From the NCBI RefSeq assembly GCF_001434895.1, contig NZ_AZEE01000030.1:1-64000 (forward strand): a DNA stretch of 64,000 nt, given 5' to 3'. Below the pieces are notes generated by a model. The model made no database searches, was not told the origin of the DNA, and saw nothing but the letters and a program-made list of their open reading frames with translations. Positions within the stretch are counted from its first letter, which is position 1. Each line of letters begins with the position of its first letter. Both the position numbers and the translations under genes were made by a program. Below, piece by piece: positions 7,769 through 61,305 of the stretch. This DNA is from Secundilactobacillus odoratitofui DSM 19909 = JCM 15043 (GTDB lineage: Bacteria; Bacillota; Bacilli; Lactobacillales; Lactobacillaceae).

Positions 7769-7883
7769 TGGTAATGTATTTATGCTTCGGATTAAGGTAC
7801 AACGTTCTTTTTAGAATGGCTCCTTATTCAAAAGTTTCAAATGCAAAATTTATTTGCGCATGGCGCATGGAGGTTTCATTCTA

Positions 7884-8084
7884 ATGGAACAAGGTACTGT
7901 TAAATGGTTCAACGCTGACAAAGGTTACGGTTTTATCACTCTTGAAAACGGCTCAGATGTATTCGTACACTTCTCAGCTATCAACTCAGAAGGCTTCAAG
8001 ACTCTTGAAGAAGGCCAAAAGGTAACTTTGGACGTTGAAGACGGCGACCGCGGCCCACAAGCTGCTAACGTTACTGTTGCTTAA
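7884..8084 (+). CDS. csp: Cold-shock protein, CspA family
   Basis: 66 aa single cold-shock domain, an RNA chaperone that melts mRNA secondary structure. RNP1 (KGYGFITL) and RNP2 (VFVHFSAI) are intact, with NG in the usual loop and the GPQAANV end. Start ATG 7884 follows GGAGG; a longer frame to 7854 is rejected because typical Csp begins [10 protein letters not shown] strong terminator follows. Leader length suggests post-transcriptional cold control. Confidence 0.97.
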
Positions 8085-8101
8085 TTTTAAATTAAGCCCT
8101 G

Positions 8102-8133
8102 AAAAAGCACCGATCATTTGATCGGTGCTTTTT
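8102..8133 (+). terminator. Terminator of csp
   Basis: 15-bp perfect stem (8102-8116 with 8119-8133) including AAAAAGCACCGATCA, followed by T6. Confidence 0.93.
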
Positions 8134-8335
8134 TGTTGTGTTGGTGGTTTTGAGTTTTGAAAGTATGATGGCCATTAGGATGATAGAACGCTCAATTGGA
8201 GTCTCTCGCAAGTATGTTTTACTAGGTTTTGCAGTTCGGCTTTGACATATTAACAAGTCCTGCTGAGGTGTGTTATAGCCGTGCTGTCCGATCATAAACT
8301 TTTTAACCTAATAACACATTGTGAGCCGTAGTGCA

Positions 8336-8502
8336 GCTGGGATTTTTGGTCCGTAGCAGTGACAAGACCTTGTTAGCGCCTTTGGCGGTTACAAGGTCTG
8401 GACGACTCAGAGACTCACGGGCTTGGTGAGGCTCTGAGTCGAGGCGAAAGACGAGGCACTCGGCTGAAGCCGGTCCCACAGCAACGGACCAAAAATCCCG
8501 GC
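8336..8502 (+). repeat. Structured intergenic element, type 1, copy A
   Basis: Closing stem of 22 positions (8336-8357 with 8481-8502; 21 pair, one G-U), then three inner hairpins. Hairpin 1: AGACCTTGT with ACAAGGTCT. Hairpin 2: GACTCAGAG with CTCTGAGTC and an A/G mismatch below an inner stem. Hairpin 3: CGAG GCA CTCG. Unpaired constants: AGTGAC after the left arm, CTGGACG between hairpins 1 and 2, GGTCCCACAGC before the right arm. Flank GCCGTAGTGC at 8325. Lies between convergent csp and amino-acid permease genes. Open frames across it are by-products of the palindromes. Confidence 0.85.
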
Positions 8503-12227: not shown

Positions 12228-12388
12228 GTTGACTTTTTGGCTGAGTAGCTGTGGGGCCGACTGCAACCGCTTCGCGTTTTCCGTCTCGTCTCTGAGCCTC
12301 GAAACCCGCGAGTCTCAGAAACGTCCAGTACCACTAAGTGCTTCGCACAAAGTGGTACTAGTCACTGCTACTCAGCCAAAAAGTCAAC
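12228..12388 (-). repeat. Structured intergenic element, type 1, copy B
   Basis: Perfect 22-bp closing stem (12228-12249 with 12367-12388). Read on the minus strand: hairpin 1 AGTACCACT/AGTGGTACT with inner GTGC/GCAC; hairpin 2 GTTTCTGAG/CTCAGAGAC (one G-U); hairpin 3 CGC GAA GCG. Constants AGTGAC, CTGGACG and GGCCCCACAGC are present. It is the left, inverted member of a pair with copy C, 115 bp away. The pair separates convergent SMR and thiD genes. Confidence 0.87.
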
Positions 12389-12503
12389 TTCTGGCACTGC
12401 GGCTACATACTGGTAAAAGTTTCTTTTGGGTCGATGCAAAAAACGATAAGCTGATGACGTCAAAGAACTGGTCAAAATTTAGCATTTTGTAACGAGAACG
12501 GAA

Positions 12504-12671
12504 GGCAATGTGCTTTTTTAGTTGCAGTGACAAGTTCGAGTTTGCGGTTTACCGCTTACTCGAACTGGACGTTTGTGAGACTTCGGGTTGTGAAGGCTCA
12601 CAAACGAGGCGGAAGACACGTGGTTTTCGTGGCTGAAGCTGGTCCCACAGCAACTGAAAAAGCGCATTGCC
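12504..12671 (+). repeat. Structured intergenic element, type 2, copy C
   Basis: 22-bp closing stem (12504-12525 with 12650-12671, two G-U pairs). Hairpin 1 AGTTCGAGT/ACTCGAACT with inner GCGG/CCGC; hairpin 2 GTTTGTGAG/CTCACAAAC; hairpin 3 CACG/CGTG. Flanks GAACGGAA before and CCTGGAGTGGC after are shared with copy F, defining type 2. Confidence 0.87.
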
Positions 12672-40538: not shown

Positions 40539-40577
40539 AAAGCGACCAAGCCGTATTCGTACGGCTTGGTCGCTTTT
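40539..40577 (+). terminator. Terminator of pgcA
   Basis: 15-bp perfect stem AAGCGACCAAGCCGT with its complement around TATTCG-type loop, then T4. Confidence 0.88.
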
Positions 40578-40723
40578 AATGTCTCAAGATTTTTTAAGTT
40601 TTTTCTATGATAGTCAATCTGCGCAGTTTGTAAAGTTGGATGCTGTTGCATGAGTAGATAAACACTTAATTGTAAGAGCTAGTAGCAAAATTCAATATAA
40701 CGTCAATATAACGTGAACGGAGA

Positions 40724-40893
40724 GCTAGCGGGCTTTTTTGGTTGCAGTGACAAGTACCACTTAACGCTTTAGCGTTTAGTGGTACTGGACGGTTCTGAGA
40801 CCCACGGCCTTGGTGGGGCTCAGAACCGAAGCGGAAGACACGACTTTGTCGTGGCTGCAGCTGGTCCCACAGCAACCAAAAAAGCCCGCTAGC
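40724..40893 (+). repeat. Structured intergenic element, type 2, copy D (best preserved)
   Basis: Perfect 22-bp closing stem (40724-40745 with 40872-40893). Hairpin 1 AGTACCACT/AGTGGTACT with inner ACGC/GCGT; hairpin 2 GGTTCTGAG/CTCAGAACC with CCCAC/GTGGG above the A/G mismatch; hairpin 3 CACGAC/GTCGTG. Constants AGTGACA, CTGGACG, GCGGAAGAC and GGTCCCACAGC. Solo copy, between pgcA and the galK promoter. Confidence 0.9.
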
Positions 40894-41011
40894 ACGTAGT
40901 GGTAGTGACCGGTACAGACAATGAGGTATATAAATCGTAACGAATTAATTTCAACGAGGTCGCGATTGTCTAACAAGCAAAATTAACAATATAATCCTGT
41001 AACAACAGCAA

Positions 41012-46035: not shown

Positions 46036-46078
46036 AAAAAGCGTCTGAGATTCGAACGTGGAATCTCAGGCGCTTTTT
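46036..46078 (+). terminator. Terminator of galR, fused to element copy E
   Basis: AAAAAGCGTCTGAGATTC (46036-46053) with GAATCTCAGGCGCTTTTT (46061-46078). The 3' arm is also the outer arm of the adjoining structured element. Confidence 0.87.
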
Positions 46079-46228
46079 GACGGATAGCAGTGGGACCGAC
46101 TTCAACCGCATTGCGTTTTCCGTCTCGTCTCTGAGCCTCGAAACCCACGAGTCTCAGAAACGTCCAGTACCACTAAGCGCTATCGCGCAAAGTGGTACTT
46201 GTCACTGTTACCCGTCAAAAAGTGGCTT
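46067..46228 (-). repeat. Structured intergenic element, type 1, copy E
   Basis: Minus orientation. Closing arms 46067-46088 and 46207-46228 pair over CTTTTTGACGG and partly beyond. Hairpin 1 AGTACCACT/AGTGGTACT with inner GCGC/GCGC; hairpin 2 GTTTCTGAG/CTCAGAGAC; hairpin 3 CGC/GCG. Flank AGCCGTAGTGCCAGAAG as in copy B. Left member of a pair with copy F, 117 bp away. Confidence 0.85.
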
Positions 46229-46345
46229 CTGGCACTACGGCTTAGATTGTGGGAATAACAAAACCCCGTTTAGGTAGTAGTGACGAAACAAAGCATGTCG
46301 TGAGTAAGATCTTTAAACTTATCAATCTACGTAGCGAGAACGGAA

Positions 46346-46511
46346 GGTAACCTGCTTTTTCGGTTGCAGTGACAAGTCCGAGTTGGCGCTTTAGCGCTTA
46401 CTCGGACTGGACGTTTGTGAGACTTCTGTATTTTGAAGGCTCACAAACGAAGCGGAAGACACGTTTACGTGGTTGAAGCTGGTCCCACAGCAACCGAAAA
46501 AGCAGGTTACC
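46346..46511 (+). repeat. Structured intergenic element, type 2, copy F
   Basis: Perfect 22-bp closing stem (46346-46367 with 46490-46511). Hairpin 1 AGTCCGAGT/ACTCGGACT with inner GCGC/GCGC; hairpin 2 GTTTGTGAG/CTCACAAAC; hairpin 3 CACG/CGTG. Flanks GAACGGAA and CCTGGAGTGGC match copy C. From here to 46760 I see only AT-rich sequence. Confidence 0.88.
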
Positions 46512-61050: not shown

Positions 61051-61101
61051 GCGCTCGCCTTCGGCCACCACCCAAAAACTGGCTTCTGGCACTACGGCTG
61101 A
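61051..61101 (-). repeat. Remnant of type 1 element (internally deleted)
   Basis: Only the outer parts remain on the minus strand: flank AGCCGTAGTGCCAGAAG, the T5-containing arm, then directly the far flank GGCCGAAGGCGAGC. The three inner hairpins are lost. Confidence 0.75.
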
Positions 61102-61220
61102 GATTGTGAGTGATACTTCTATGCCATATTCACTAGAACAGAGGATAAAATAATACCATTTGCAATGATAACGTTTCCTGAAGTGATAGTGATAGTAATG
61201 AACAACTTTCCAAATTAAAA

Positions 61221-61305
61221 GAGGCGGAAGACACTTGGTTTTCGTGGCTGAAGCCGGTCCCACAGTAACTGAAAAGGAGCGTTACCTGGAGTGAAGTAGC
61301 AGTGA
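61221..61305 (+). repeat. Remnant of type 2 element (5' truncated)
   Basis: Starts in GAGGCGGAAGACAC and keeps hairpin 3, GGTCCCACAG, the right arm and flank ACCTGGAGTG. With the preceding remnant it repeats the type 1 minus / type 2 plus arrangement of copies B/C and E/F. Confidence 0.75.

Follow-up and report, generated by a model that had tools for sequence, protein, structure and literature searches.

The intergenic element at 40726–40893 of the analysed window (the whole 64-kb stretch of Secundilactobacillus odoratitofui DNA) is one of at least 138 copies, arranged in 92 units, in the 2.75-Mb draft genome, and probably belongs to a family of mobile, non-autonomous composite repeats that occur in high copy number in lactic-acid bacteria and are recognised in trans as a folded single strand. 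The full unit would be a divergent pair of folded elements, mostly 145–195 nt long, around a short spacer, and single elements would be partnerless, decayed or accompanied by one member too diverged. Each element would work in its own sense, folded as single-stranded RNA or DNA, and its multi-branched structure would show a trans-acting protein a double-strand AGAC/GGCT motif containing an A.G mismatch, in most cases two times, a mode of action resembling that of REP/BIME elements but operating without a REP transposase. The family is real and large and apparently undescribed, with a distant known relative, Rfam family RF02616. It exposes an annotation gap in much-used bacteria: this genome holds more than 100 copies, and similar numbers of matches were seen in genomes from three further genera.

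Copies, divergent pairs and orientation in S. odoratitofui

A first-pass model (R1) gave at least 108 places after removal of antisense echoes. A second model (R2) was built from 44 matches, taken from relatives and from diverged copies of the own genome and including one antisense echo. It returned at least 149 matches; subtraction of 12 antisense echoes and addition of a decayed copy at 61169 found by R1 resulted in the 138 places. Forty-six units are pairs with members 94–355 bp apart, while the other 46 are single. All 46 pairs are divergent, with the left member on the minus strand, the right member on the plus strand and the 5′ ends facing each other.

Within the window, all six copies named in an earlier sequence-only reading were located (Table 1), and an additional seventh unit, decayed, occupies approximately 61056–61290. 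Four of the six had been taken as independent copies, at 12228, 12504, 46067 and 46346; they are indeed present, but 12228 and 46067 are minus-strand copies, so that the four form two divergent pairs, 12228/12506 and 46067/46348. That many copies are arranged as divergent pairs of two types, in S. odoratitofui for the most part aligned with replication, had been overlooked.

Table 1 Elements and associated features in the 64-kb window
Feature	Position	Strand	Remarks
Type B element	8338–8502	+	No recognised partner; opposite to usual orientation
Type B element, left member of divergent pair	12228–12386	-	
119-bp pair spacer	12387–12505	.	Terminates in GTAACGAGAACGGAAGG, the left flank motif of type A
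Type A element, right member of pair with 12228	12506–12671	+	
Intrinsic-terminator-like hairpin	40540–40582	+	3′ of phosphoglucomutase gene, upstream of the 40726 element
Type A element (copy of the finding)	40726–40893	+	Closing stem, hairpins 1–3; gap without partner
Type A right flank motif ACGTAGTGGTAGTGACC	40894–40910	+	
Type B element, left member of pair	46067–46226	-	Outer end overlaps terminator-like hairpin 46040–46081, 3′ of a lacI-family gene
121-bp pair spacer	46227–46347	.	
Type A element, right member of pair with 46067	46348–46511	+	
Type B remnant	61056–61099	-	Both flanks and part of stem remain, core gone
Type A remnant	61217–61290	+	Without left half

Two other features of the window were recorded: the cspA thermoregulator RF01766 at 7839–8134, which is its sole Rfam match at the gathering cut-off, and a 117-nt direct repeat (79% alike) at 48–569, within reading frame 7–1173.

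Two types of element were distinguished by their flanks. Type A carries GTAACGAGAACGGAGG on the left and CGTAGTGGTAGTG or similar on the right, and type B carries AGCCGTAGTGCCAG and TGGCGGCCGAAGGCGGC, respectively; eight of the 108 first-pass elements were untypable by flank motif and were set aside. Twenty-nine of 33 first-pass pairs consist of one A and one B member, and in the remaining four a member was untypable or both were typed alike by the script. Most of the 33 spacers have no homology to each other. In one group of three, up to 68 bp are common to the spacers at 81% identity, indicating that pair and spacer moved together there. Five spacers (C4:284039, C4:343868, C7:8752, C4:528982 and C11:65657) share a small hairpin, CAGTGCCTATT...AATAGGTGCA, which several of them carry as an inverted pair, a repeat within the repeat.

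According to a simple ORF script, 29 of the 75 first-pass units lie between convergent, 41 between tandem and 4 between divergent genes, with 1 unknown, and at least one gene 3′ end adjoins 70 of them. A typed member is likewise present in 70 of the 75: type A points along the replication fork in 63, against it in 6, and one unit is mixed. Fork orientation was therefore seen in 63 of 69 scorable units (drawn from the 108 first-pass places). Each contig contributed one to four samples to the skew estimates, with closer sampling of C5 and a 2.7-kb sample for C24. Agreement with the fork extended to 7/7 units in tandem genes running against it, 21/25 between convergent genes and 3/4 between divergent genes. 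Units amid tandem-against-fork and convergent genes still follow the fork, and transcription therefore does not set the orientation.

On contig C5, the skew changes sign between 336 and 376 kb. The part of C5 beyond 86 kb, around the terminus, comprises 594,181 bases; R2 found no element in the 475,005 of these that were read, and none from this whole part was among the matches listed in the genome scan. At average density, 19.9 units would be expected in 594 kb, if unit clustering and unequal intergenic space are ignored.

Fork orientation and absence from the terminus do not fit simple selfish spread and are the parts least explained by the mobile-repeat reading. They would suit a chromosomal address site, where a protein reads the elements and thereby marks replication direction or keeps some function away from the terminus. 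Noc and SlmA sites are absent from the terminus, and Chi and KOPS sequences are oriented. Consistent with such a role are an orientation that follows replication independently of transcription, the empty 475 kb around the terminus and the lack of plasmid (three units) or phage (one unit) matches. However, orientation is missing from G174, a genome of a related genus, where 15 of 28 matches (taken as one type by length) agree with skew and there is thus no fork polarity; 5 of 15 genomes of the Secundilactobacillus genus have no match while others exceed 100; and a double-strand binding site would not contain the conserved mismatches described below, which exist solely in folded single strands. 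We consider an address site rather improbable.

Fold, covariation and strand sense

Sixty-three nhmmer places from the window and 30 further stretches produced an alignment of 49 full-length copies, following exclusion of those with low score, missing anchors, N, unassigned flank type (including a form with long hairpin 1) or unsuitable length. The consensus comprises 58 base pairs and forms a junction of a closing stem (~ 20 pairs plus GTG/CAC) with hairpins 1, 2 and 3. Compensatory double changes were found at 42 of the 58 pairs, with 593 cells altered on both sides and 97.5% of cells paired, as compared to shuffle means of 32 pairs, 167 cells and 76.3%; none of 500 shuffles reached the observed values on any of five measures. 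Sliding the partners by 1–3 columns left just 30–41% of cells paired.

The conserved A/G mismatch of hairpin 2, reported from the letters of the window, was confirmed as A.G in 45/49 copies and in AGAC/GGCT context in 44/49. An A.A mismatch is near-invariant (48/49). The 5′ side of hairpin 3 reads AGAC in 31, AAAC in 14 and AGCC in 4 of the 49 copies. Of 32 relatives, 30 contain AGAC...GGCT one or more times and 22 contain it two or more times, versus 2.9 and 0.07 in mononucleotide shuffles. The motifs described earlier as fixed and unpaired are in part paired, with GTG of AGTGAC opposite CAC of GGTCCCACAGC (GC in 49/49, UA in 48/49 and GC in 49/49).

Compensatory changes with constant joints had been attributed to selection on a folded single strand, and this is supported by sense-strand G.U pairs exceeding A.C mismatches, at 55:12 among type A copies, 41:12 among type B copies and 73:26 in the 32 relatives, the last from an alignment fitted to the structure. 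Also supported was the statement that the element is not just a terminator, a reading ruled out by a multi-branched fold that covaries throughout and by a T-tract located inside the stem. A cruciform would treat both strands alike, so that the sense-strand G.U excess speaks against it. If the recognised form were single-stranded DNA from one replication strand, A and B members should show opposite preferences, but each favours its own sense, and lagging-strand ssDNA as the sole recognised form is thus disfavoured. The data favour a folded single strand of each element's own sense, most simply RNA.

The copies might accordingly be transcribed structured RNAs, either stand-alone sRNAs or UTR structures binding a protein, that spread as a by-product; such a high copy number is, however, unusual for an sRNA. 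The two members of a pair lie on opposite strands of the chromosome, and the G.U excess on the sense of each fits two RNAs and not cruciforms; in two genomes of genus g14 (L168 and L169) a related element sits directly upstream of a purE-like gene in a leader-like placement. In addition, S. pyogenes SSRC8, discussed below, is a transcript with a Northern signal (PMC3675131). Nevertheless, no promoter-like signal beyond shuffles was detected when the 110 bp preceding 47 copies of type A and 51 of type B were examined, a terminator-like hairpin occupies 3/5 window gaps scanned, and gene 3′ ends adjoin nearly all first-pass units as noted above. We regard this explanation as unlikely, and the composite mobile repeat as the preferred one.

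Relatives, orthologous sites and insertion

The distribution of the elements is patchy across both genus and family, which counts in favour of a mobile repeat. R1 matched ten of the 15 genomes of the genus, that of S. odoratitofui among them, and none of 26 others. Of 201 Lactobacillaceae genomes sampled, R2, run with stricter filters and up to 14 scored candidates per genome, matched 41, which represent 10 of the 40 genera. Three R2-positive genomes searched deeper contained at least 144, 146 and 130 raw matches, antisense echoes included. Carriers recognised by exact pattern were Secundilactobacillus angelensis, S. silagincola, S. mixtipabuli, S. yichangensis, S. pentosiphilus and S. hailunensis, as well as Levilactobacillus fuyuanensis and L. 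parabrevis. A pattern scan of genome contigs identified ten loci in named species with the relatives' motif and no match with the own-species motif.

Divergent pairing extends to relatives. All 22 pairs within 900 bp were divergent in L. fuyuanensis (379 kb; 76/79 matches used), as were all 19 within 600 bp in G174 (380 kb; 55/55 matches used), in sections chosen around listed matches in both cases. Several copies in another genome (G010) are near contig ends, and runs of ten N inside two elements (L023 near 1160 and L025 near 7277) are perhaps scaffold gaps at hard-to-sequence hairpins.

Three orthologous sites holding the element were found. At site 1, it is present in six species beside the gene for a ~ 470-aa membrane protein; in four of the six, a reading of the sequence also places a hydroxy-acid dehydrogenase gene next to it. 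The full fold is retained in five species, with 13/65 pairs compensated and only 14/325 cells unpaired or gapped. Site 2 holds the element in three species and site 3 a divergent pair in both S. odoratitofui and S. mixtipabuli. Genes flanking site 3 are 72–78% identical, while elements and spacers give no blastn match between the two species. Taken together, these comparisons indicate that elements persist or are renewed in place while their sequence turns over.

In S. mixtipabuli, the site 1 element is replaced by a perfect palindrome with ~ 43-bp arms (L043:7911–7996), likely the product of a single template-switch event, where the S. silagincola orthologue is full (L048:6067–6228). The replacement lends some weight to the idea that pairing throughout the family is maintained not by selection but by template switching in replication, which perfects imperfect inverted repeats. 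We consider this very improbable: template-switch correction would remove the mismatches, yet A.A persists in 48 and A.G in 45 of 49 copies, nor would it give a one-strand G.U excess. In the same two species, a group of sortase- and surface (pilin-like)-looking genes lies between element copies (L043:1376–7996 and L048:1496–6228), and in two other species (L046 and L050) a single copy stands between the same outer genes without the pilin-like group, a difference possibly due to recombination between element copies.

Returning to the composite mobile repeat, insertion as a unit is evident in G174. There the pair sits in a unit with inverted ends CTAAAGGTTGAAAG/CTTTCAACCTTTAG, and perfect 8-bp direct repeats flank 5/19 such end pairs within 900 bp, all five around an element or pair, the 19 including some end pairs not around an element. 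Mean 8-bp identity was 0.526, as opposed to 0.333 in shuffles (sd 0.040; highest of 1000, 0.480). When duplication lengths of 4–9 were tried, 7 and 8 exceeded all shuffles and 4, 5, 6 and 9 did not, the pattern that an 8-bp repeat directly abutting both ends should give. Duplications of this kind together with inverted ends demonstrate insertion in the genus of G174.

In S. odoratitofui itself, no target duplication was detected in 23 anchorable of 29 A/B pairs (words of 3–5 bases), and no common inverted ends were seen by eye in the unit flanks. The suggestion of a non-autonomous mobile unit, put forward tentatively at the outset, thus gains inverted ends and 8-bp duplications in a related genus but shows neither in its own genome, whose units we infer to have moved in the same broad sense. 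Distant blastn searches returned no match for three units in 72,556 plasmid records or for one unit in 50,697 phage records, diverged copies being liable to be missed in either; such a lack is odd for an active mobile element.

With regard to a mobiliser, the Y1 transposase domain PF01797 was present in 5/8 element-bearing genomes searched and was not found in the own draft, G144, G151 or G119. TnpB (PF07282) was present in G174, G151 and L. fuyuanensis (G045) and was not found in the own draft, G144 or G119. Both the Y1/REP transposase and TnpB are therefore ruled out as universal mobilisers, being absent from some high-copy genomes.

Comparison with known systems

The closest parallel in organisation is with REP/BIME/REPIN elements, which are likewise extragenic, high in copy number, arranged as inverted pairs of two types around a spacer, marked by a stem mismatch and patchy in distribution (REP features partly from PMC3733652). 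Inverted extragenic pairs are found here in 46 units, the other 46 being single. However, the fold described here is multi-branched and mostly 145–195 nt long, whereas REP is one short hairpin, with GTAG/CGTC REP stems of 5–13 bp (PMC3733652). A short single hairpin with a GTAG or CGTC tag is not what the family has, although the letters GTAG occur, possibly by chance, in its flanks, and the Y1 transposase was not found in the own draft genome.

As regards MITEs, G174 units possess terminal inverted repeats and an 8-bp target duplication, while neither was detected in the S. odoratitofui units; the fold is common across genera and the G174-type ends are not. An IS605/TnpB guide-RNA element would be accompanied by TnpB, which the own genome lacks in the search described above. 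BOX and RUP are interspersed repeats of streptococci, and neither is known to resemble the element. We found no description of the element in an open-access literature search; 250 mobile or repeat candidates are counted in PMC11109978.

The remaining comparison is with RF02616 (SSRC8_2), described as an sRNA (Streptococcus sRNA 8) and, by its name, derived from S. pyogenes SSRC8. PMC3675131 reports for SSRC8 a Northern signal, ends mapped by circular RACE and a drop in late stationary phase, and shows that positions ~ 150–245 recur in other streptococci. When R2 was applied to 246 Lactobacillales genomes, 16 were matched, 12 of them outside Lactobacillaceae, and stretches from six of these 12 were examined; matches in the other six may be chance hairpins. 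Copies from three genomes (L166–L169) have the same plan and match R2 at full length with 49.7–66.7 bits, and also match RF02616 at 34.6–45.8 bits, below its gathering cut-off of 72 bits. Those in two further genomes (L171 and L173) contain a GGCGGAAGAC...GGCTGGAGCCGGTCCC stretch resembling hairpin 3 of S. odoratitofui (R2 matches of 24–40 bits for L171–L173), and the copy in one genome (L170) shows a weaker likeness.

RF02616 itself matches 30 of the 246 genomes, of which 27 belong to a single genus (g14), with several matches per genome there (up to at least 7) and scores above the cut-off in nine genomes. In the S. odoratitofui genome it yielded 0 matches at E ≤ 0.001 under stricter filters and none in the window, and 13 further stretches had no Rfam match at the gathering cut-off. 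The sequence-only reading had recognised no named family and had named a hit to Rfam as grounds for refutation. Its view holds for the window and the own copies; more distant members match RF02616 only below the cut-off, so that refutation came half-way.

The likeness appears to reside in hairpins 2 and 3, common to the bridging L166–L169 copies, which both models find, and the RF02616 core would be linked to the S. odoratitofui copies through these intermediates, there being no direct match. In contrast to RF02616, the S. odoratitofui family frequently forms divergent pairs with two types of flank, occupies at least 138 places and displays no promoter signal. One could envisage a Lactobacillales-wide superfamily of folded, often paired elements, with SSRC8 as one branch, that in some hosts serves as an oriented, terminus-excluded address system, its folded single strand read during replication, and domesticated from a mobile repeat, a scenario we rate as quite improbable. 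Divergent pairing, a sense-strand fold, fork polarity in one genome and an empty terminus make this a case of a selfish repeat possibly entering chromosome or RNA biology, and the bridging copies link an orphan streptococcal small RNA to an interspersed repeat family.
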